The notes below the pieces were generated by a model, which saw only the letters and a list, made by a program, of their open reading frames with translations, had not been told where the DNA came from and searched no databases. Both the position numbers and the translations under genes were made by a program. Shown here piece by piece: positions 17,274 through 29,193 of a DNA stretch of 64,000 bases. Each line of letters starts with the position of its first letter. Within the stretch, counting starts at the first letter, position 1. Source of the DNA: Paenirhodobacter ferrireducens (GTDB lineage: Bacteria > Pseudomonadota > Alphaproteobacteria > Rhodobacterales > Rhodobacteraceae); NCBI RefSeq assembly GCF_004022265.1, contig NZ_SAVB01000001.1, positions 1-64,000 of the forward strand. The letters run 5' to 3'.

Positions 17274-17741
17274 ATGCACGGACCTTTCTCCTTGCGGCTG
17301 TCCCGCCGGGCCTGGCTGTCGGGCGTGGCGGCACTCGGGGCCACGCTGACCGCACGGCCGGCGCTCGCCGGCGCCGCAGCGCTGAGCTTTGACGAACTTT
17401 ATGCCAGCTTCAGCCCGCTCGGGCTCGAGTTCTCCGACAAGGTCAAGGCACTGACCGGCCAGGAGGTCCGCATCCGCGGCTTCATGGCGCCGCCGCTGCG
17501 GGCCGAGGCGAAGTTTTTCGTGCTGACGCAGATCCCGATGGCGCTGTGCCCGTTCTGCTCCTCGGATGCCGACTGGCCCGACAATATCGTCGTCGTCTAT
17601 CTCGACCATCGCCAGACCTTCACCCAGCCGAACCGGACGATCGAGGTGACGGGGGTGCTCGACCGTGGCGCCTGGGTCGATCCGGACACCGGTTTCGTCA
17701 GCCAGCTGCGCCTGCGCCAGGCGCAGTACGACGCGGTCTGA
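17274..17741 (+). CDS. Tat-exported DUF3299-like protein
   Basis: This 155-residue protein has a twin-arginine signal (RLSRRAWLSGVAALGATLTA, cleavage near ARPALA). The mature part contains VKALTGQEVRIRGFMAPPL and VLTQIPMALCPFCSSDADWP, an arrangement with a CPFC pair and a small beta-rich (OB-like) fold that I associate with DUF3299. Such proteins occur next to ABC transporters of the kind that follows, including zinc-responsive systems in gammaproteobacteria. The Cys pair could bind metal or be a redox site. The ABC ATPase gene starts 17 bases downstream. Family assignment is from memory, not a search. Confidence 0.65.
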   Translation: MHGPFSLRLSRRAWLSGVAALGATLTARPALAGAAALSFDELYASFSPLGLEFSDKVKALTGQEVRIRGFMAPPLRAEAKFFVLTQIPMALCPFCSSDADWPDNIVVVYLDHRQTFTQPNRTIEVTGVLDRGAWVDPDTGFVSQLRLRQAQYDAV

Positions 17742-17758
17742 ACGCGCAGGAGATCTCC

Positions 17759-18445
17759 ATGCTATCCCTCTCGCTGGCCGGGGTCGAAGTCCGGTTTCCC
17801 GGTCTCGAGACGCCGGGGCTGCGCATCGAGCGCCTCGAAATTCCGGCCGCGGCGCAGGTTGTGCTTTCCGGTCCCTCGGGTTCGGGCAAGTCGACACTGG
17901 TCAATGTCATCACCGGCCTGCTGCGTCCTGCGGCGGGGGCGGTGAGCTGGAACGGCACCGATCTCGCGGCGCTGTCCGAGCCGGTGCGGGACCGCTGGCG
18001 GGGGGCCAATGTCGGGCTGGTGATGCAGGATTTCCACCTGTTCCCCGGGCTTTCGGCGCGCGAGAACGTGCTTTTGCCGGCGCGGCTTGCACGTGTCGCC
18101 GGCAAGGAAACGGTCGCCCGCGCGGTGGCGCTGCTCGAGCGGGTCGGCCTGTCGCGCCCCGATCAGCCGATCGAGACCATGTCGCGCGGCGAGATGCAGC
18201 GCGTGGCCGTCGCCCGCGCCCTGCTGCGCGCGCCGGGGGTGATCGTCGCCGACGAGCCGACGGCGAGCCTCGACCCGGTGAACGGCGCCGCGATCGGCAC
18301 CTTGCTGCGCGATCTGGCGCGCCAGTCCGGTGCGACGCTGATCGTCGTCAGCCATGACCCGCGGCTGATTGCCGCCTTCCCGCGCCGGATCGCGCTGGCG
18401 GATGGCACGGTGAGTGCCGACGAAACCCTGTCGGAGGCGGGCTGA
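17759..18445 (+). CDS. ABC transporter ATP-binding protein (MacB/LolD type)
   Basis: The 228-residue ATPase has Walker A GPSGSGKSTLVN (about 40-51), Q-loop VMQDFHLFPGL, a weak signature MSRGEMQRVAVARALL, Walker B VIVADEPTASLD and the H-loop VVSHD. It is of the LolD/MacB type that pairs with FtsX-like permeases. The start is ATG 17759, behind GGAGA. Its stop overlaps the ATG of the permease (TGATG), indicating one transport complex. Confidence 0.9.
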   Translation: MLSLSLAGVEVRFPGLETPGLRIERLEIPAAAQVVLSGPSGSGKSTLVNVITGLLRPAAGAVSWNGTDLAALSEPVRDRWRGANVGLVMQDFHLFPGLSARENVLLPARLARVAGKETVARAVALLERVGLSRPDQPIETMSRGEMQRVAVARALLRAPGVIVADEPTASLDPVNGAAIGTLLRDLARQSGATLIVVSHDPRLIAAFPRRIALADGTVSADETLSEAG

Positions 18446-19710
18446 TGCTGCGTTTCATCTTCGCCGACCTGCGCCGGCTGTGGCCGGGGGCGGTCGTGGT
18501 GGTGGTGCTGGTGGCGCTGGCCGTCGCACTTGGCGCGACCGTCACGCTGCAGGAGCGCGCGCTGCGCCTTGGCAGCGCGCGGGCCTCCGACAAGTTCGAT
18601 CTGGTGATCGGCGCGCCGGGCAGCGAGACCCAGCTCGTGCTCTCCACCGTCTTCCTGCAGCCGGCGGCGCTGCCTCTGATGCACGGCGATATCCTGCAGC
18701 GGCTGAATGCCGATCCGCGTGTCGCCTGGGCCGCGCCGGTGGGCTTTGGCGATTCCTTCGATGGCTACCCGATCGTCGGCACCTCGCGCGCGCTGCTTCG
18801 CGACACTGCATCGGGGGTTTCGCTCGGGCGGATTTTCGCGGCCGAGGGCGAGGCCGTCGTCGGCGCGGCGGTGCCGCTTGCTCCCGGTGCGCATGTCGCC
18901 TCGATGCATGGCGAGGCCGATACCGGAGGGCAGATGCACGAGGGGGTGGGGTATCGCGTCGTCGGCCGGCTCGCGCCCACCGGAACGCCTTGGGATCGTG
19001 CGATCCTGGTGCCGATCCAGGCGGTCTGGCATGTGCATGACCTTGACGCCGGGCAGGATGGGGCGGCGGCGCAGGGGCACGATCAGGCTCCGGGCGGGGT
19101 GGCGGATCACGATCCTGCAGATGGTCTCTTCGAGCTCGATGCGCCGCTCGACGAGACCTGGGGCGAGATCCCGCCCGGCCTGCCCGCGATCCTGGTCAAA
19201 CCGAAGAGCATCGCCGATGCTTATGCGCTGCGCCGCGAATACCGGCTGCGGCCGGACACCGTCGGGGTGTTTCCCGCCGAGGTGCTGACCGGTCTTTACG
19301 CGATGATGGGGGATGCGCGCAGCGTGCTCTCGGCGATCGCGGTCGGCACGCAGGCGCTGGTTGCGGCGGCGCTGCTGCTCGTCGCGGTGATCCATGTCGG
19401 CCAGCGGCGGCGCCAGATCGGCGCCTTGCGCGCGCTCGGGGCGCCGCGCTGGGCGATCTTCGGGATCGTCTGGGGCGAGCTGTCGGTGCTGCTTCTGGCG
19501 GGGGCGGTGATCGGTCTCGGGCTGGGATACCTGGCGGCCAGTCTGATGGCGCAGGCCTTCAGCGCCCGACAGGGGTTCCCCTTGCCGGTGGAGTTCAGCC
19601 GCGACGATCTGGGCGGGCTTGCGCTGCTCGGTGCGGCAAGCGTGCTGATCCCGCTGATCCCGGCCGCGCTGGTCTGGCGGCAGCCGCCGCTTGCCGCGAT
19701 GCGGAGCTGA
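18445..19710 (+). CDS. FtsX-like ABC permease with a His-rich periplasmic loop
   Basis: The 421-residue permease has one N-terminal membrane helix (about 14-34), a large periplasmic domain and three C-terminal helices (about 303-325, 348-380, 385-412), the MacB/FtsX topology. The outer domain carries a His/Asp-rich patch: H150, H155, H165, VWHVHDLD (H196, H198), GHD (H212) and DHD (H222). This suggests metal contact. With the ATPase and the Cys-pair Tat protein it may be a zinc-handling ABC system, next to zinc-dependent PhoA. The substrate is inferred only; lipoprotein or peptide transport is the alternative. Confidence 0.8.
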   Translation: MLRFIFADLRRLWPGAVVVVVLVALAVALGATVTLQERALRLGSARASDKFDLVIGAPGSETQLVLSTVFLQPAALPLMHGDILQRLNADPRVAWAAPVGFGDSFDGYPIVGTSRALLRDTASGVSLGRIFAAEGEAVVGAAVPLAPGAHVASMHGEADTGGQMHEGVGYRVVGRLAPTGTPWDRAILVPIQAVWHVHDLDAGQDGAAAQGHDQAPGGVADHDPADGLFELDAPLDETWGEIPPGLPAILVKPKSIADAYALRREYRLRPDTVGVFPAEVLTGLYAMMGDARSVLSAIAVGTQALVAAALLLVAVIHVGQRRRQIGALRALGAPRWAIFGIVWGELSVLLLAGAVIGLGLGYLAASLMAQAFSARQGFPLPVEFSRDDLGGLALLGAASVLIPLIPAALVWRQPPLAAMRS

Positions 19711-19789
19711 ACGGTGCGGCGCCGATTGAGCTGCTGCCGGGGTCGTGGACACGAAGATAAGATCGTGACCAAGGCGCTGGAGAGCGGAT

Positions 19790-19912
19790 ATGAGGAGACG
19801 GAAGTTCAGCCGCGAGTTCAAGATCGAGGCGGTGAAGCTGCTGACCGAACGGGGTGTTTCGGTCTCGCAGGCGTGCCGGGATTCCACGGCATCAAGTGCG
19901 GCGTGTAATTAA
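19790..19912 (+). pseudogene. transposase OrfA remnant (IS3 type)
   Basis: MRRRKFSREFKIEAVKLLTE followed by RGVSVSQACRD is the start of an IS3-type OrfA. After 31 residues the sequence changes to DSTASSAACN and stops. The rest of the element is absent, so this is a solo 5' end joined to unrelated DNA. Confidence 0.7.
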
Positions 19913-20080
19913 GTGTGTTCATCTGCCGCTGATCCCGGCGGCAGGGATGGGCGGAGCCAACAGCCCGAGCACATAGACACGATGCAATAAATTTGCGCGG
20001 GAATGATCCCCGTGTCTCAGTGGCCTGAACGTCTCGCACCAACGCAAACGCGCTGGAGGCTCCCCATGTCGGACCGCGCG
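19913..20080. other. junction DNA without a gene
   Basis: The stretch has lower-GC patches (GCAATAAATTTGCGC) and no ORF with start signals. It joins the IS3 remnant to the 3' end of the NagZ-like gene. It may hold the end of another mobile element, but no inverted repeat was found. Confidence 0.35.
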
Positions 20081-21280
20081 TCAGGCCCTGTCCTGCCAGG
20101 CCTGCCGGCGAATCGCACGCACACGCGCGACCGCCGCGGTGATCTGCGCTTCGGTCAGTACCCCTTGGGCGATGGCCTTGCGAACCCAGCGCACCGCGCG
20201 GTCTGGCAGCAAGGGGTCGTAGCCAAACAGGTTCTTGATCATAATCAGATCATTTCCGGCGGCGAGCGCCTGCACGACGGCCTCCCTCCGGCTCATAAGA
20301 TGTCGGATGGCGTCCATATCGACATCATCCGTCATCACGACCCCCCGGTATCCGAGCTTCTGCCGCAGAAGATCTGTCACGATAGGGGCCGAGACAGTGG
20401 CCGGCCGGCCGTCAGGAGCCAAGTGTTCAAGACATAAATGGCCCGTCATCACTATGGCGGGGACGTGGGGCGAGACGAACAGTCGCGAGAAAGGCTCCAG
20501 TTCCGCCTCGGTCCAACGCGCGGAAATGTCGACGACCCCGCTATGGCTGTCACTCGTCGAGCGGCCATGGCCGGGAAAATGCTTGGCCGCGCAAAGAATA
20601 CCGGCGCTGGCAAAGCCGCTGGCAAAGGATTCGGCATAGGCGGCGATGCGTTCGGGATCGGTGCCATAGGAGCGCTTCGGCCTGCCGATCACCGGATTTT
20701 CCGGATCGTCGACATCCAGAACGGGACCAAGATTGATGTTGAAACCGAGTGCCGCGAGCTCCCGCCCCGCCTTGGCGTAAAGCTGGCGGGCCTCCGTCGG
20801 CGACAGCGTTTCCGCGACCGTCCGGGCGGCGGGAAGCCGTCTGACGCCGTGCGCCGGGGTCAGTCGCTGAACCACGCCGCCTTCATGATCAATGGCGATC
20901 AGCGGCTGATTATCGCCGGCGCGGAACAGGCGTATCAGATCGGCCAACTCATCGATCGTGCCAATGTTCTGAGTGACAAAGAACACCCCGCCAACCTGGC
21001 CGCGCTGGACCTGCCGGGCCAGGAGCCGCGCCGACGGGGACCGGGCATTCGCCCCATAGAACCCCACGACGAGCAGTTCTGCAACCGCAGCTGCAAGCTC
21101 GTCGCGCGGTCGGAACAGGCCGAACCAGGCGGCGGGATAGTCGAGCATGCCGCGTCCGAAGCCCCGAACCGCACGAACGGCGCGCCAGAGCCGTCGCAAG
21201 CTTGTGCGAGGGGCGCCGATTGCGCGGTTCGTCGTCTTGTGCAGTTGCTTCATGGCAGTGGCGATGCGGCGGGCTGCCAT
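20081..21280 (-). CDS. GH3 beta-N-acetylhexosaminidase, NagZ type
   Basis: The 399-residue protein has the NagZ signatures: LIAIDHEGGVVQRL (131-140), KHFPGHG (233-239) followed by the catalytic Asp/His pair DSH (244-246), and the nucleophile region VVMTDDVDMDAI (about 315-324). NagZ removes N-acetylglucosamine from muropeptides. Unlike cytosolic NagZ it has a 60-residue Arg-rich N-terminus; no clear signal peptide is seen. It starts 50 bases after the MurC-NRPS fusion on the same strand, so it is probably the third gene of that operon and may process the product or its peptidoglycan target. ATG 21253 is an alternative start. Confidence 0.85.
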   Translation of the reverse strand: MAARRIATAMKQLHKTTNRAIGAPRTSLRRLWRAVRAVRGFGRGMLDYPAAWFGLFRPRDELAAAVAELLVVGFYGANARSPSARLLARQVQRGQVGGVFFVTQNIGTIDELADLIRLFRAGDNQPLIAIDHEGGVVQRLTPAHGVRRLPAARTVAETLSPTEARQLYAKAGRELAALGFNINLGPVLDVDDPENPVIGRPKRSYGTDPERIAAYAESFASGFASAGILCAAKHFPGHGRSTSDSHSGVVDISARWTEAELEPFSRLFVSPHVPAIVMTGHLCLEHLAPDGRPATVSAPIVTDLLRQKLGYRGVVMTDDVDMDAIRHLMSRREAVVQALAAGNDLIMIKNLFGYDPLLPDRAVRWVRKAIAQGVLTEAQITAAVARVRAIRRQAWQDRA

Positions 21281-21329
21281 GATCAGACCGGATGAACGCA
21301 AACTTGCGCCTGTGTCAGGTGATGTGGCT

Positions 21330-24300
21330 TCACAACGCCCCTCCTCCGTTATGATGGCGGTCGATGTGGCGGAGGACCGTCGCGGCGAGGGCCTCGACAT
21401 TCCCCGGCCTGAAATAATGCCCATGCGCCCCGGGGATGATCTCGACATCATGGCCCGCAGGATAGGCGGTGCGGAATAACTGTTCCGGCGCAGCGATATG
21501 CCCATAGGGATTGAGATAGCTGCCCGCGCCGAAGAGAAGCAGGGTCGTGCCCGGATAATGGAAAAAGCGGCCCTGCTCCATGAGGATGGTTAGGGCGACA
21601 GTGCGGCCCTGACGCATCAGCTCCAGCCCGGCTTCGCGCATCACCAGTCCCCCCTGACAATTCCCGCCAAGGAACAGCGGGCCGGTCGGGGCGATGGACG
21701 TTATCTCGTCGGCATAGAGCCGGCCGAGCGCCGCCAGAGTTTCGGCCGTGTATTCGACGGCAAGATGTCCCGAGCGCATGCCGAACAGCGAGACCGCATC
21801 GTCCAGACACTCGCTCAGCCGTGCAAGCTCCTGTCCGGACTGGAAGCACCAGAAAAGCTTCGGAAGCGGCCGCTCTGCGCTCAGGCTCCGCACCAGTCCG
21901 GCCTTGCCAAGGCGCTGGCCGGGCCATGTCGCGAGATGGGGCAGGATCTTCGCGTTCAGCGCCTCCCCGATGTCGGGCGCGGTGGGGACATTCGGGGCCT
22001 TGAGACGGGCATCCACCATCAGGGCCAGAACCTCGACGGTGTCGAAACCCGCTTCGAGCCCGGTATCGAGCGTGATGCCGAAAGCCTCCTCGATCGCGAA
22101 CAGGAGGTTCGCCATCGTCAGAGAGTCGATCCCCGCATCGCGCAGGCTGTCCCGTGTGCCGGCGACGACACTGCCCCCGGCTTCCTTATCGATCAGCGCC
22201 ATGAGCTTCGCCTCGGTCGCGGTGCCGGTGGTGTGGGCATTGGGCGGCCGCGTCAGGTGGGGCGGGACCGGCAGCGCGCGGCGGTCACGCTTGCCATTGG
22301 CATTGCGCGGAATCTCGGGAACGGGAAGGAAGACTGAGGGCACCATGTAGGACGGCAGCTGCTGTCGCAGCCGGGCGCGCAGATCGACCGGATCGGGCGC
22401 GGGCACGTCGGGCATCATCACCACATGGGCGATCAGACGATCTGAGGAATGAGGAGAGGAGGCGAGCGAGACGGCCGCGTCGCTGACGCCGGGCAGGCTG
22501 CACAGGGCTGCCTCGACCTCGCCTGGCTCGATGCGGTAACCGTTGACCTTCAGCTGGCTGTCCATGCGTCCCAGACAGATGAACGCGCCGTCGGCACCGG
22601 CTTTTGCCCGGTCTCCGGTCCGATAGATGCGGGTGGGGCCCCGGCCGGGGAGGTCGACCACCGGGAAGCGCTGCGCGGTCAGCTCGGGCTGGTGGCGATA
22701 GCCCCGGGCCAGTCCGGACCCGAACAGGCAAAGCTCTCCCTCCTGTCCCGGTGCGACAAGCCGGAGGGTCTCGTCCATCAGACACGCCCCCATGTTGTCG
22801 AAGGGCCGCCCGATGGTGACCGGGCTGCCGGGCGTGCACGGGGCGAACAGCGCCTCGACCGTGGCTTCCGTCGGCCCATAGGCGTTGATGAAGCTGCGGC
22901 CCTTGCCCCAGCGTTCGACCAGCGCGGGCGAGCAGGCTTCGCCCGCCACGATCACATGGGTCAGATGCGGATGTTCTGCCGGCGGAATGATCGCCAGCGC
23001 CGAGGGCGTCAGCGACAGATGCGTCAGCCGGGCCTGCGCGATGAAGCGACCGACGGGCGGGCCGGGGACCGCCTGCAAATCGGTCGGATAGACAAGGCAG
23101 GCCCCGGCGGCCAGCGTCACGGCCAGATCCCCCACTGAGACATCGAAGCCGAATCCACTGATCTGCGAGACGCGCGCGCCGGGGGTAATCTGGAAGTGCC
23201 GCGACGCCGCGACCGCGTAATTGGCAAGCGCGCCGCGCGGGATCTCGACCGCCTTGGGCTGTCCGGTCGTGCCGGAGGTGAAGATCATATAGGCCAGCGC
23301 ATCCGCGGCGCTGTCCGCCGCGTGCCACCGGGGGGCAGGCCTGCCGTCAGGATCCGGCAACTGGCCGCAATTGACGAAACTGAGGCCAATGTCCGGCAAG
23401 GCAGGGCTTGCGGCATTCACGACGACCGTCCGCACGCCTGCGGTCTCCAGCATGTAGCGCAACCGTTCCTCCGGCAGAGCCGGGTCGAGCGGGACGAAGA
23501 TGCCGCCAAGCCGGAGAATGGCGAGGAATGCGCTCACCCGGTCGACCGTCCGGCCAAGACACACGCCCACGCTGTCGCCGGCGCTGACGCCGGCTGCGGC
23601 CAGGGCTGAAGCGAGATCATCGGTTCTGAGGACAAGATCCGCGTAGCTGAGACGGCGATGCCCCATTTCAACGGCGGGCGCCGTTGGCTGCCGGTCGGCG
23701 TGCCCGGCGACAAGGGACAGCAGATCGGGCGGCAACGGCCGGCTCTCTCCGATCAGGACGCTTGGCGTGGGGGCTGGTGGAGGCGGGCGCGCGGCCGGGT
23801 GCGACAGCGTCTCGGCAAGACGTGGGGCGAGGGCCGCGCCGCTGGCTCCGGCCATGACGACCACCGTGTCGTCGTCTCGCAGATCGTCCTGCAACCGCAG
23901 CAGCAGCTCTGACACGTCCGGGACGTGTTGGCACGAAAGCCCCGCGGCCCGGCAGGCATCGGCCAGCGCAGCATCTCCGTCCCCCGCCTGCACGCTCTCG
24001 CCGAGCGCCGCCACCGGCAGGATGAAGCTGCGGTCCGCCGCCGCCAGAGCCTGCGCGAAGCGCGCGGCCATGCGCGTGACCCGGCTGTGCAGCTGCGGCT
24101 CGAGGACCGCGATCAGCCGTCCCTGCGTCGTCTCGCGCAGGACGGCCAGCGCGGCCGCGATCTCGGTCGGGTGATGGGCGAAGTCGTCGAAGACGCGCGG
24201 CCGGCCTTCCGGAGATACGCGCTGCAACCGCCGCGCGATCCCGCGGAATGCGGCCAGGGCGCCGGCTGTGGTCTGAAAGTCGATGCCAAGGGTCATCGCC

Positions 24301-25160
24301 ATCCCCAGAGCGGCCATCGCATTGAGCAGGTTGTGGCGCCCCGGAACCGCCAGGCTCAGCGTGCCCAGTGCGTTTCCGTGCAGGAAGACGGTGGTCCCCT
24401 GCGACCCGTCGGGCACCGCCCGCAACGCATTCCCGTCGCCAAAGCCATATGTCAGGGCCGCACAGCGTGCTTGACCCAGGGCATCGACGACCGCCGGGTC
24501 GTCGCCGCAGACCACCGCCCGCCCCTCGGGCGGCAGCCGCGACAGGAAGTCCGCGAAGGCGCGCCGCACCCCGGTCAACCCGCCATAGTGATCGGCGTGA
24601 TCGTCATCGAGGTTGGTCAGAATGGCATATGTCGGTTGCCACTGCGCCAGAGCGCCATGGGCTTCGCAGGCTTCGGTCACGAAAGGCGCGCCGGGCGCAC
24701 CCAGCCGTGCGGGGGCAATGTCGGGATCGGCAAAGGACGCCCCCAACATATAACCGAAATCGTCTGGTCCCGCAGCGTGCAGGATCTCGACGAGCATCGC
24801 TGTCACCGTCGATTTGCCATGGCTGCCCGCCACGCAGATGCTGCGACGCCCCGAGATCAGCTCGGCCAGCATCCGGGCGCGGGTCTTGACGGGAATGCCA
24901 TCGCGCCGCGCCGCGCGCCGTTCCACATGGGTCTCGGGGATGGCCGGACTTGCCACGACACAATCCGCAGCCCGCGCAAGGGCCGGATCGGCGCCCGAAA
25001 GGACCGCGATCCCCTGTGCTTCCAGAATGGCAAGACGTGCAGGGGCGCAGAGCGTGTCGCTGCCGGTGACGGGGTGGCCCGCCTGCTTGAGCAGGAGCGC
25101 CAGAGGCAGCATGCCGCTTCCTCCGACCCCGATCAGGTGCAGCCGCGCTGGGTCAGACAT
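21330..25160 (-). CDS. MurC-type Mur ligase fused to an NRPS module (A-T-TE)
   Basis: The single 1276-residue frame has these parts. Mur ligase, about 1-455: LHLIGVGGSGM (7-17), P-loop GSHGKST (112-118), TNLDDDHADHYG, PGRHNLLNAMAALG, DDFAHHPTEI (325-334). Pro-rich linker about 456-476. Adenylation domain about 480-965: IFTSGTTGQPKAVEI, GFDVSVGD, NAYGPTEATV, YRTGDRAK, GRMDSQLKVNGYRIEPGE, NANGKRDR. Carrier domain about 980-1055 with AGIDSLTMANL (Ser1013). Thioesterase about 1095-1276 with GNCQG (Cys1168) and GAHGHYF (His1246). No condensation domain. The Mur part would activate a UDP-muramate carboxylate, the NRPS part an amino acid. Start ATG 25160 overlaps the upstream stop by 8 bases. The combination is unknown to me. 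Confidence 0.92.
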   Translation of the reverse strand: MSDPARLHLIGVGGSGMLPLALLLKQAGHPVTGSDTLCAPARLAILEAQGIAVLSGADPALARAADCVVASPAIPETHVERRAARRDGIPVKTRARMLAELISGRRSICVAGSHGKSTVTAMLVEILHAAGPDDFGYMLGASFADPDIAPARLGAPGAPFVTEACEAHGALAQWQPTYAILTNLDDDHADHYGGLTGVRRAFADFLSRLPPEGRAVVCGDDPAVVDALGQARCAALTYGFGDGNALRAVPDGSQGTTVFLHGNALGTLSLAVPGRHNLLNAMAALGMAMTLGIDFQTTAGALAAFRGIARRLQRVSPEGRPRVFDDFAHHPTEIAAALAVLRETTQGRLIAVLEPQLHSRVTRMAARFAQALAAADRSFILPVAALGESVQAGDGDAALADACRAAGLSCQHVPDVSELLLRLQDDLRDDDTVVVMAGASGAALAPRLAETLSHPAARPPPPAPTPSVLIGESRPLPPDLLSLVAGHADRQPTAPAVEMGHRRLSYADLVLRTDDLASALAAAGVSAGDSVGVCLGRTVDRVSAFLAILRLGGIFVPLDPALPEERLRYMLETAGVRTVVVNAASPALPDIGLSFVNCGQLPDPDGRPAPRWHAADSAADALAYMIFTSGTTGQPKAVEIPRGALANYAVAASRHFQITPGARVSQISGFGFDVSVGDLAVTLAAGACLVYPTDLQAVPGPPVGRFIAQARLTHLSLTPSALAIIPPAEHPHLTHVIVAGEACSPALVERWGKGRSFINAYGPTEATVEALFAPCTPGSPVTIGRPFDNMGACLMDETLRLVAPGQEGELCLFGSGLARGYRHQPELTAQRFPVVDLPGRGPTRIYRTGDRAKAGADGAFICLGRMDSQLKVNGYRIEPGEVEAALCSLPGVSDAAVSLASSPHSSDRLIAHVVMMPDVPAPDPVDLRARLRQQLPSYMVPSVFLPVPEIPRNANGKRDRRALPVPPHLTRPPNAHTTGTATEAKLMALIDKEAGGSVVAGTRDSLRDAGIDSLTMANLLFAIEEAFGITLDTGLEAGFDTVEVLALMVDARLKAPNVPTAPDIGEALNAKILPHLATWPGQRLGKAGLVRSLSAERPLPKLFWCFQSGQELARLSECLDDAVSLFGMRSGHLAVEYTAETLAALGRLYADEITSIAPTGPLFLGGNCQGGLVMREAGLELMRQGRTVALTILMEQGRFFHYPGTTLLLFGAGSYLNPYGHIAAPEQLFRTAYPAGHDVEIIPGAHGHYFRPGNVEALAATVLRHIDRHHNGGGAL

Positions 25161-25716
25161 CGCCCAGATCTCCCTTGAGGGCATACTCACTGATTTTTCC
25201 CAGCTCGGTGAAGATGCGCTGCCGGCCCCGCGCGGTCTGCCACCAGGTTTCCGCAGACAGATCGCCGGGATCGTCCGGGGGCTGAGCAATCAACCGTATA
25301 TCGGCCGGGATATGCCGGCGCAGGGTCATGATCGCGCGGCGCATGTGAAAGGGCTTGGCGCAGACGGCAAGGCTGCGGACCCGGTCCCAGCCCAGCTCCG
25401 TCTCGATCAGGGCTGCACCGAACGCCGCGTTCTCGGCGGTATTGCGGGCGGATTTCTCCAGCAGCAGCGCGCTTTCCGCCACGCCCGAGGCGAGCGCGTG
25501 ATCGCGGTAAAAGGACCATTCGGCCGATCCATCGACGGCAGTGCCTGCGCCCGAGACTAACAGTTTCGGGACCAGCCCCGCCTTGTAGAGAGCAATTGCC
25601 GGGTGGATGCTGCTGATCGTCGGGCTACAGAAAACGAATGCCAGATCCACGGCTTCCGGGCGGCATTTCTTGAACAGGAAGGCGCTGATGGCAGTGCGGC
25701 TGTCATATGTATCCAT
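25153..25716 (-). CDS. DUF218 (YdcF/ElyC/SanA-like) protein
   Basis: The 187-residue protein has DUF218 features: AVDLAFVFCSPTISSIHPAI, LVPKLLVSGAG, an acidic central motif, SARNTAENAAFGAALI (89-104) and AVCAKPFHMRRAIMTLRR (118-134). No signal peptide or membrane segment is present, so it resembles soluble YdcF more than membrane-anchored ElyC. Relatives are linked to cell-envelope precursor metabolism. It has a TTGAGGAAAG ribosome-binding site and is the first gene of the operon, overlapping the MurC-NRPS gene by 8 bases. Its chemistry is unknown. Confidence 0.8.
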   Translation of the reverse strand: MDTYDSRTAISAFLFKKCRPEAVDLAFVFCSPTISSIHPAIALYKAGLVPKLLVSGAGTAVDGSAEWSFYRDHALASGVAESALLLEKSARNTAENAAFGAALIETELGWDRVRSLAVCAKPFHMRRAIMTLRRHIPADIRLIAQPPDDPGDLSAETWWQTARGRQRIFTELGKISEYALKGDLGDV

Positions 25717-25816
25717 ACCGCTTTCCTCAATTTGCGCTCGCTTTTCAAGGGGCTGACTTTAAGCGATATCCACCTCGGGGCAATCGAAAACGGTTTGAGC
25801 ACTTTCTGGAAAAGAG

Positions 25817-26144
25817 TTGCGTGAGGCCATCGAGCTTTATGCCGAAGCTGAGGGATGTCCGAGCCGCCCAAGTTGGCGCAGCATCGAACTGGGCGCTCGG
25901 GAGCGGGCGATGATGCTGGGTGTGTCCGGCGCCGATTGGGACGCTGCGCGCGACAGCTTGGGAGAGACGCGCGCCTCGCTCTGCCTTCTCTTGGCCGACC
26001 GGAATTCCAAACGTACCGGCAAGTTTGGGGTTCGCAATCCCGTCGGGGCTTTCTTTGGGCTCGCCAGAAAGGAAAGCGCGAGGCGTCGCTGTGATGGAAA
26101 CGCTGATCGGTGAGCTGATGCAGTTCGTGCGAGAGAAGGCCTGA
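25817..26144 (+). pseudogene. plasmid replication protein C-terminus (RepC-like), frameshifted
   Basis: One frame reads MMLGVSGADWDAARDSLGET, RASLCLLLADRN and VRNPVGAFFGLARKESA, then shifts near 26085 to RGVAVMETLIGELMQFVREK. The pattern (WDxAxxxLG, then NP-GAFxxLxRK) is that of the C-terminal end of plasmid RepC-type replication initiators. Only the last third of the gene remains. Placed just before mob genes, it points to an integrated and eroded plasmid. Lower GC than the surroundings just upstream supports foreign origin. Confidence 0.5.
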
Positions 26145-26632
26145 TGCAGATATCCGATCAAGCAGGCATTGCGCAGGCTGAGCAAAGAGCAAGGCGACCC
26201 CTGTCATACGCGGACGCTTCTGACCGGGGACCTTGCGAGGGGCGGCAAGCCTCCCCTTCGAACCCCACCGGCGCGGGCGATGCCCCCGCCAAGGAGCGGC
26301 GGAGCGAAACCTTCGTCTTTCGCTGCACCCCGGCCGAAAAGGCCGCGCTTCGAGCCAAGGCTGAAGCGGCGGGCCTGTCGGCGGCTGATTTATTGCTCGA
26401 GGCTCTGAGGTTCACCGAGGCCCGCCGGCGCAAGCCGATCCCCCGTGCCGCGCCAGAGCTGGTGCGGGCGGTCGGGCGGATCGGCGGCAACCTCAACCAG
26501 ATCGCCCGCTGGCTCAACCGGGCCGCGCGTGCCGGCGAGAGCCGCCAGATCGACGCCTTGCAGGTCGCCCGGCAACTGGTTGCCATCGAGCGCCAGCTTG
26601 CCCCGCTGATCGCGGAGGTGGGCCGATGCTGA
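26144..26632 (+). CDS. mobilisation protein MobC-like (relaxosome)
   Basis: The C-terminal 110 residues are MobC-like: ETFVFRCTPAEKAALRAKAE, GLSAADLLLEALRF, then PELVRAVGRIGGNLNQIARW LNRA. This ribbon-helix-helix type protein helps the relaxase open oriT. The first 45 residues are low in sense, so the real start may lie nearer 26280. Its stop overlaps the relaxase start (ATGCTGA), as in intact mob operons. Confidence 0.72.
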   Translation: MQISDQAGIAQAEQRARRPLSYADASDRGPCEGRQASPSNPTGAGDAPAKERRSETFVFRCTPAEKAALRAKAEAAGLSAADLLLEALRFTEARRRKPIPRAAPELVRAVGRIGGNLNQIARWLNRAARAGESRQIDALQVARQLVAIERQLAPLIAEVGRC

Positions 26633-27180
26633 TCAAGTTCTTCCCGAACGGCAAGGGCGCGGGCGCCGGGCCAGTCGGCTATCTCGTCGCGCGCGAGGTG
26701 CTGGCCTATGACGAGAGCCGCGACAAGATCCGGGGCGACGACGGTCGGCCGACGACCGTGATCCGCGACACCTTGTCCGAGGTGCTGCGCGGTGATCCCA
26801 AGCGCACCGAGGCGCTGATCGACACTTGCCCGCATGACTGGAGCTACCGCGCCGGTGTCATCGCGTCACCGGCCGAGGACGCGCCGAGCGAGGCCGGGCA
26901 GCAGGAAGTCATGGATCGCTTTGAGGAGCTGGCCTTTGCGGGGCTCGATCCCGATGGCTACGACATGCTCCGGGTGCGCCACAGCCACGAGGGACGGATC
27001 GAGCTGCATTTCTGCACGCCGCGGATGGAGCTGGAAAGCGGCAAGAGCCTTCAACATCGCGCCGTCCGGCTATGAACGGGCCTTCGACAGCCTGCGCGAC
27101 CTGATGAACAAGACCCACGGCTGGGCCGATCCGATGGACATCGCGCACGCACAGGAGGTGCGGCGGGTGCTTTCACTTTC
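26626..27180 (+). pseudogene. MOB-type relaxase, N-terminal fragment with frameshift
   Basis: MLIKFFPNGKGAGAGPVGYL opens a relaxase of the MobA/MobL kind; YDMLRVRHSHEGRIELHFCT holds the His-rich metal site region (RHSHEGRIELHF). A frameshift near 27050 moves the frame to FNIAPSGYERAFDSLRDLMN, KTHGWADPMDIAHAQEVRR. The match ends near 27175, where integrase sequence begins. Full-length relaxases are several hundred residues longer. Confidence 0.72.
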
Positions 27181-27189
27181 CTTGAAACC

Positions 27190-27578
27190 GTGGCAGGGCG
27201 TGCCCGCACGGCCACGGGGCTCAGCTCCTCGATGCGGAAAGGGTGCGACAAAGCGGGACTGCCGCTCTGTTCGGCGCATGGACTCCGCAAGGCAATTTGC
27301 CGGCGTGTGGCCGAAATCGAGGGGGACGTCTTCAAGGTGATGGCGGTCAGTGGTCACACCGACATCAAGGAAGCGCAGAAATAGTGCGCACGTTCGGTCG
27401 CAAGAAGAAGGCCGACGCTGCGATTTCCAGCCTTCCGAGCGGGGGAAATGGGGAGCAGGGATTGACGAACCCTCTTGATGGGTTCGGCAAAAATGAAGGT
27501 AAGACTCTGAGAAAAAAGGGAAAATTATGGTATTTGGTAGGCCCGGAGGGATTCGAACCCCCAACCAAGGCGTTATGA
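27190..27578 (+). pseudogene. tyrosine recombinase (integrase), C-terminal fragment reading into the tRNA
   Basis: The fragment has KAGLPLCSAHGLRKAICRR (box II with HGLRK) and MAVSGHTDIKEAQ (box with GH). A frameshift at about 27382 then leads to FGRKKKADAAISSLPSGGNG and finally GPEGFEPPTKAL, which is the antisense of the tRNA 3' half. The tyrosine nucleophile codon region is at the shift. Ending inside a tRNA gene is typical of integrases that use it as attachment site. Confidence 0.8.
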
Positions 27579-27610
27579 GCGCCCTGCTCTGACCATTGAG
27601 CTACAGGCCC
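27535..27610 (-). tRNA. tRNA with CAT anticodon, probably tRNA-Ile2 (k2C), attachment site
   Basis: Read on the minus strand, GGGCCTGTAGCTCAATGGTC begins a full cloverleaf: D arm AGCTC, anticodon loop CTCATAA, T loop TTCGAAT and an encoded CCA. The anticodon is CAT. The acceptor and the CTCATAA loop fit the lysidine-modified isoleucine tRNA better than elongator Met, but Met is not excluded. The first acceptor pair is G-T, possibly because the 3' end was regenerated by an integrating element. The integrase fragment overlaps its 3' half. Confidence 0.9.
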
Positions 27611-27690
27611 AGCATGGTTTTCCGTCTATCATGGTGACTGCGAGCGTCAAGGAATGCCTGCACCGGGAGGCGCGGATTTGCGGCCGGCGA

Positions 27691-27939
27691 TCAGCTCCGG
27701 CACGCCGGCGTGCCGCGATCGAAGACCGAACTGCAGGAGGTGGCGGCCGAATCTCGTGCCGGCTGGCTGGCGCTTTCCGCGGTGGGGCCGCTTTGTGTGC
27801 CATCGGGCCGGTCGGGCGGTGTCGTCTCCTCCCGCACCACGGGGGAGGGCTCGCCCACGGGCGCGGTGACGCCGCCGGCAAGAACCGCGGAGCCGGTGCC
27901 CGCGATCACGAGCAGGGTTGCAACGGCGATGCGTTTCAT
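27691..27939 (-). CDS. small secreted protein, 82 aa
   Basis: MKRIAVATLLVIAGTGSAVL followed by AGGVTAPVGEPSPVV is a signal peptide plus a Pro/Glu-rich start seen in many small Rhodobacteraceae periplasmic proteins. The remainder is polar and low in complexity (RPDGTQSGPTAESASQPARD). A GAGGACAGG ribosome-binding site precedes the ATG. Function unknown. It is divergent from purM. Confidence 0.6.
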   Translation of the reverse strand: MKRIAVATLLVIAGTGSAVLAGGVTAPVGEPSPVVREETTPPDRPDGTQSGPTAESASQPARDSAATSCSSVFDRGTPACRS

Positions 27940-28150
27940 CCTGTCCTCGAAATGACGCGCGCATGGCGAGGCGGCTTTGAGCCCGCCCTGATGCGCTCTT
28001 GAAATCCCCGTGACTCTAGCGCCGGCGCGCCTTGCTGCGCAAGGTGGCACGGCGGCGGAGATTGTGCCGCAGGGGCGGGCGGGACGATTGCCCCTGCGCC
28101 GCGAACGCGATAAAGGCAGGGCGAAACCTGTCGCGAACCCGGAGCCTGCC

Positions 28151-29193
<1,043 letters not shown>

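Follow-up and report, generated by a model that had tools for sequence, protein, structure and literature searches.

Modules of nonribosomal peptide synthetases (NRPSs) form amide bonds with condensation (C) domains or take up ready-made acyl groups. The Mur ligase MurC joins a free amino acid to UDP-N-acetylmuramic acid (UDP-MurNAc), and another Mur ligase, Mpl, belongs to wall recycling. In this study, we analysed a 64,000-nucleotide stretch of Paenirhodobacter ferrireducens DNA (contig NZ_SAVB01000001.1, positions 1 to 64,000; hereafter the window) and focused on one gene that joins a MurC-like ligase to an adenylation (A), a carrier (T) and a thioesterase (TE) domain. No Mur ligase-NRPS fusion was described in the literature searched, which comprised open-licence papers only and is therefore weak evidence of absence. 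To that extent the search agrees with a preliminary description of the locus, made from the sequence alone, whose author knew of no system with this architecture. We regard it as an evenly balanced proposition that the protein works as a synthetase of one module, with the MurC-like ligase in the place of the condensation domain, and that it releases a muramyl-amino-acid product. If this is true, a Mur ligase in the condensation place would be a new way of chain start and would connect thiotemplate biosynthesis with the metabolism of wall precursors; it would also predict a family of muramyl metabolites, possibly antibiotic, signalling or immune-active.

A conserved fusion of a Mur ligase with an NRPS module

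The open frame runs from 25160 to 21330 on the minus strand, from ATG to stop, and encodes 1276 residues. It contains the following parts.

21330 to 25160, minus strand: Mur ligase-A-T-TE fusion, 1276 amino acids, defined by the open reading frame, by Pfam and NCBIfam matches and by the same fusion in 17 relatives
23811 to 25160, minus strand: MurC-like ligase region, residues 1-450 (Pfam 7-437), with K116, E166, H188, N277, N280, R310 and D326 kept
22266 to 23723, minus strand: adenylation domain, about residues 480-965, with the 10-residue code DVGSIAAVEK
22011 to 22208, minus strand: carrier domain, about residues 985-1050, with Ser1013 (Pfam PP-binding)
21330 to 22007, minus strand: thioesterase domain, residues 1052-1276 and the stop codon, with Cys1168 in GGNCQGG, Glu1195 and His1246

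The Pfam search that the preliminary description had proposed placed Mur_ligase at residues 7-105, Mur_ligase_M at 110-288 and Mur_ligase_C at 310-437, followed by AMP-binding (487-821), AMP-binding_C (881-957) and PP-binding (1002-1045), all above their cut-offs; Thioesterase (1135-1193) scored 21.6 bits, below its cut-off of 26.4. An AlphaFold2 model of residues 1052-1276 reached a mean predicted local distance difference test score (pLDDT) of 89.6, and its fold matched the thioesterases of NRPSs and polyketide synthases, in line with a type I thioesterase. The open frame, the Pfam and NCBIfam matches and the TE model bore out the single 1276-residue Mur-A-T-TE frame first described, and the motifs quoted for it (GVGGSGM, GSHGKST, DDDHADHYG and DDFAHHPTEI) as well as the carrier serine S1013 were found in the translation.

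A scan of GTDB genome contigs kept 79 of 513 matching stretches, 13 of them with the fusion (L001-L013) and the other 66 with the Mur part only. Whole-genome searches yielded three further members (G086, G139 and G929), with G114 and G186 counted once together with L001 and L002, and one fusion lies on a finished record, plasmid pAMI4 of Paracoccus aminophilus (n = 1). The 18 members compared, namely the window and 17 relatives, are mostly Rhodobacterales. The frame is uninterrupted in 13 of them, one on the finished plasmid; the fusions of L006 and L008 are cut by contig ends, and those of L004, L011 and L013 contain frame breaks. In Paracoccus cavernae (L011, 9417-15086) the fusion is split over several frames, and sequencing error and decay are indistinguishable there.

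The ratio of nonsynonymous to synonymous substitution rates (dN/dS) between the window and nine relatives was 0.09-0.52 in each domain compared, L006 contributing the Mur and A domains only and L012 being near saturation. The recurrence of the fusion in 17 relatives excludes chance and an assembly error at the linker (456-476), a check named in the preliminary description, and an assembly error was also rejected on the uninterrupted full frame of 13 members. These results indicate that the Mur-A-T-TE fusion is real and conserved. It is also rare, being found in at least 5 of 390 genomes of the order, the window's own included (E 1e-200), in at least 1 of 385 genomes in a draw from the class (the own genome), and in at least 2 of 398 in a draw from the phylum, one of them again the own genome (both E 1e-170); these frequencies are lower bounds because two candidates per genome were scored.

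The Mur domain and its amino-acid motif

We aligned the Mur parts with solved MurC and mapped on the alignment the seven residues (Lys, Glu, His, Asn, Asn, Arg and Asp) that we take to be the catalytic invariants of Mur ligases. All seven were present in 18 of the 18 members. The ATP and metal residues are intact, and the UDP-site signature GxGGxGM and GSD is kept, so that binding of ATP and of a UDP-sugar, the second check named in the preliminary description, is predicted to be retained. The fusion thus resembles MurC in having three Mur domains in order, the P-loop, the metal and nucleotide residues and the UDP-site signature, but differs in its attached A-T-TE, in a changed amino-acid motif and in its score with the NCBIfam murC profile, which was just below the cut-off (321.6 bits, or 325.3 in the genome search, against 335.1). 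A separate MurC scoring 516 bits lies on another contig of the same genome. The identity of a housekeeping MurC was rejected on account of this full-score copy, and that of Mpl on account of the mpl score (173.5 against a cut-off of 388.7) and the placement in the Mur tree.

In Haemophilus influenzae MurC, His376, Arg377, Arg380, Tyr346 and His348 are believed to bind the incoming amino acid, according to the accessible text of the source (PMC3060825). The equivalents in the window are Gln356, Leu357, Arg360, Phe327 and His329, two of the five being kept. Of the 14 fusion rows, 13 have Gln at the His376 place, a residue that none of the 23 other rows compared shows there. Three MurC rows likewise have Leu where Arg377 would be, and Phe stands at the position of Tyr346 in 22 of the 23 non-fusion rows, a count favoured by the fetching of the non-fusion loci with patterns, one of which contains DDFAHH. 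Since Leu and Phe are thus found in ordinary MurC rows as well, only Gln356 is distinctive.

The motif reads E-P-Q-L or E-P-Q-M in 13 of the 14 fusion rows and E-P-L-S in L095. Among the 23 other rows, six have the Q-P-H of the MurC type and the remaining 17 start with E, 13 of these with E-P-R. The corresponding Mpl residues given in the accessible part of the same source are Glu402, Pro403, Arg404 and Ser405 (PMC3060825), and the 17 E-starting rows may be read as Mpl-like. The fusions share with Mpl the Glu that opens the motif, but depart from the E-P-R of 13 of the 17 Mpl-like rows. We built a Mur tree of 37 rows, for which 28 of the 66 non-fusion loci and the own MurC were candidates; L014 and L015 are omitted, as are L025, L030, L038 and L060, which have stops in their rows. 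The 14 fusion rows formed one clade (100/100), which grouped with five of the six Q-P-H rows (97/91), apart from the Mpl-like rows; the sixth, L019, fell outside.

The place of the condensation domain

Pfam detected no condensation domain in the fusion protein or in its own genome, and none in nine of 11 further cassette genomes, which represent 11 of the 17 relatives; most of these genomes thus have no condensation domain at hand. A plasmid NRPS of Rhodobacter sp. CZR27 has the order C-A-T-TE, with 35% identity over A-T-TE, the same GGNCQGG, and a C domain where Mur sits in the fusion. Another plasmid NRPS, from Methylomagnum, starts with C-A-T-TE and carries GGNCQGT and a Tyr at the His1246 place. 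Both share with the fusion the A-T-TE order, 33-35% identity, GGNCQG and a Glu at the Glu1195 place, but their first domain is a condensation domain, whereas the fusion starts with a Mur ligase. The earlier proposal that the Mur domain replaces a condensation domain thus found circumstantial support, in the C domain of CZR27 at the Mur place and in the nine cassette genomes that lack one.

The plasmid relatives stand in varied settings. In CZR27 (L087, 4651-8538; L101, 29895-43098) the lone C-A-T-TE with its cysteine TE adjoins genes for a glycosyltransferase, a pyruvyl transferase and a flippase, which may point to an amino-acylated polysaccharide. The Methylomagnum C-A-T-TE (L088, 4591-10647) forms a single 2018-residue protein with a sulfotransferase and TPR repeats. 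More distant cysteine TEs of the GGNC type were seen free-standing in Phaeobacter (L099, 9133-14309), with an AMP ligase, a P450-like protein and a carrier protein nearby, and in an A-T-TE of Gemmobacter (L100, 7186-9807).

The adenylation, carrier and thioesterase domains

The amino-acid adenylation profile TIGR01733 (NCBIfam) matched the A domain with 369 bits against a cut-off of 317.4. We set the code positions by eye from GrsA motifs. The window itself has DVGSIAAVEK, from which the others of its branch depart at one or two positions (Val to Thr, Ile to Val, Val to Ile), and the divergent branch has DAHGNGIMVK in L012, DAHGNGIM-K in L093 and DAHGMGFIYK in L095. DVGSIAAVEK is similar to an ornithine code, which weakly suggests a diamino acid. 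We also built a tree of 26 A domains, with 11 NRPSs picked from plasmid matches rather than a broad sample as outside rows; the two branches joined in 0 of 200 bootstrap trees, and no strong branch forbids their joining. The Mur domains, in contrast, do join, and a constant Mur domain would thus stand before a variable amino-acid module. The carrier matched PP-binding with 24.7 bits (cut-off 20.8), its phosphopantetheine serine being Ser1013, and the DS at 1012-1013 is kept in 17 of the 18 members, with L006 cut by a contig end. To the eye, this domain looks like an acyl carrier protein, which AcpS might serve.

The nucleophile of the TE is Cys1168, not Ser, and the Cys-Glu-His set is kept in 16 of the 18 members, L006 and L008 being cut by contig ends. 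Cysteine TEs in ObiF1 and SulM close beta-lactone and beta-lactam rings and have their acid in position II, as stated in the accessible portions of PMC6668435 and PMC11298585. The fusion TE is like them in being an NRPS TE with a cysteine nucleophile, but as far as those portions allow the comparison it differs in its acid. The sequence and the predicted strands put Glu1195 in position I: the invariant Glu comes directly after predicted strand 137-143 of the TE model, and no acid directly follows predicted strand 155-160 (position II). Position I is also that of the acid in AB3403, a TE that the same portions leave uncharacterised. With the acid in position I, ring closure cannot be read from the cysteine motif, and a ring-forming cysteine TE of the ObiF/SulM type is unsupported by the acid position.

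A cassette with relatives of wall-sugar enzymes

The fusion is the middle gene of a cassette that begins with a DUF218 gene and usually ends with a NagZ-like GH3 gene.

25153 to 25716, minus strand: DUF218 (YdcF-type) gene, 187 amino acids, found by Pfam; its 3' end overlaps the fusion start by 8 bases (ATGTCTGA)
20081 to about 21283, minus strand: NagZ-like GH3 gene with the KHFPGHG and DSH motifs kept; its exact start is uncertain

The DUF218 match scored 62.1 bits against a cut-off of 27.6. All 18 members have DUF218 immediately ahead of the Mur part, and in the divergent L012 and L093 it is fused to the front, giving proteins of 1459 and 1446 residues. In the part of PMC12176290 at hand, the Escherichia coli DUF218 proteins SanA and ElyC are reported to affect envelope-precursor balance and YdcF to bind S-adenosylmethionine, and a Thr-His-Glu triad is named for SanA. 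With positions set by eye, this triad is kept in 17 of the 18 members; L003 has Ser for Thr.

GH3 follows the fusion in 11 of the 18 members, the L013 copy being cut by a contig end; in L006 and L008 contig ends preclude seeing it. The cassette GH3 carries the KHFPGHG, DSH and TD motifs of the NagZ type, but its score of about 171 bits falls short of the PRK05337 cut-off (207). Two further GH3 copies are present in the own genome, one with 201 bits, likewise short of this cut-off, and one that is weaker, indicating that the cassette GH3 is extra. In the metagenome-assembled genome of L009 (13858-15054), GH3 has TGD at the presumed nucleophile, against TDD in three others compared. The cassette thus brings an NRPS module together with relatives of enzymes that act on wall sugars.

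A proposed route and its alternatives

In the route that we propose, the A domain would adenylate an amino acid and load it onto the phosphopantetheine of the carrier at Ser1013, and the Mur domain would phosphorylate the lactyl carboxylate of UDP-MurNAc or a close nucleotide sugar. Attack by the free amine of the aminoacyl group on the carrier would then give a muramoyl-aminoacyl-S-carrier, from which Cys1168 of the TE would take over the acyl group and cyclise, transfer or hydrolyse it for release. Earlier or later steps could fall to DUF218 and, for most members of the window's branch, to the NagZ-like GH3, whether by supplying MurNAc units or by trimming N-acetylglucosamine or nucleotide. 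The cassette would thus make a small muramyl-amino-acid metabolite and would not take part in normal wall synthesis. We infer the substrate, the order of coupling, the release and the product, as well as the parts played by DUF218 and GH3; a muramyl-amino-acid product is the most likely. We propose more tentatively that Mur acts as a condensation-like first NRPS domain, joining UDP-MurNAc to a carrier-bound amino acid, and that the mobile cassette would make a new family of muramyl peptides. A cell-wall precursor, an antibiotic or an immunity factor, as offered in the preliminary description, are each conceivable as the product.

Several results weigh against this route. The structure prediction for Mur and A that the preliminary description had suggested gave a Mur-A-T model too poor to use (pLDDT 69.6, predicted template modelling score 0.39), with the linker 455-477 among the lowest-confidence stretches of a generally poor model, so that no geometry shows the carrier reaching the Mur site. 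In the amino-acid site, the Leu and Phe changes are also seen in ordinary MurC rows, L095 lacks the Gln, and retention of the Arg380 and His348 equivalents means that the site may still accept a free amino acid. Condensation domains occur in two of the 11 cassette genomes, those of L001 and L013. The backbone of the A-domain tree is weak, and the A domains may therefore still have one origin; in the TE tree, 49% of the bootstrap replicates unite the Mur-linked TEs of the two branches, which decides nothing. No GH3 was found beside the fusion in L001 (2.6 kb downstream) or L004 (10 kb), nor in the divergent L012 (3.1 kb), L093 (1.1 kb) and L095 (8.3 kb downstream). As a phosphopantetheinyl transferase candidate, the own genome has one PF01648 match, AcpS-like and of 135 amino acids; two such matches occur in nine of the 11 other cassette genomes, but at least two are also present in 28 of 60 further genomes of the order, which makes the difference weak.

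The two halves of the protein could instead work independently, the Mur domain ligating a free amino acid to UDP-MurNAc as MurC does, A-T-TE activating an amino acid separately, and the cysteine TE transferring the latter either to the Mur product or to a hydroxyl or amine of a sugar. The kept R360 and H329 are consistent with this, as are the related C-A-T-TE on a plasmid stretch with polysaccharide genes and a TE acid placed as in AB3403 and EntF, unlike in the ring-forming TEs of the ObiF/SulM type as the accessible portions of the sources present them. However, Mur sits at the place of a C domain, and Gln replaces His376 in nearly all fusion rows and in no other row compared; we therefore hold independent activities to be rather unlikely. 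It also seems unlikely, and slightly more so, that the Mur domain uses another carboxylic acid, from a different nucleotide sugar or a small acid, for a natural product that has nothing to do with the cell wall. The methyltransferase gene beside the fusion in divergent members (in L012 together with a flavin monooxygenase gene), the murC score below cut-off and the long branch to the MurC rows would fit such a substrate, but the UDP-site signature and the seven Mur residues are intact, and the neighbouring NagZ-like GH3 and DUF218 genes point to wall sugars. As for a join that is decaying or an artefact, its domains not acting in concert, frame breaks in three of the 18 members speak for it; the 13 uninterrupted frames, one on a finished plasmid, the dN/dS values well below 1 in each domain and the kept catalytic residues make it very improbable.

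Flanking genes and probable mobility

Two features lie upstream of the cassette in the window.

26144 to 26632, plus strand: NikA/MobC-type mobilisation protein, upstream of the cassette
27535 to 27610: tRNA-Met, beyond the NikA/MobC gene

Mobilisation or insertion-sequence-type genes lie near the fusion in the window (NikA/MobC), on pAMI4 (an IS3 transposase) and in L001 (an integrase core), from which we infer that the cassette is apparently mobile and has spread by transfer. A phage origin was rejected, as no phage record covered 80% of the query, and so was an anti-phage defence system, as there was no PADLOC match at E 0.001. For a tRNA-bordered island, no repeat at the tRNA end was reported within 17500-28500. 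The NikA/MobC gene and the tRNA-Met are perhaps the remnant of a mobilisable element.

A methyltransferase gene comes after the fusion in L012 and L093, and L095 has a methyltransferase-like gene in the opposite direction. Among the flanks of L001-L013 and the window, those of L009 and L010 share three upstream genes; the others gave single weak matches of 29-45%.

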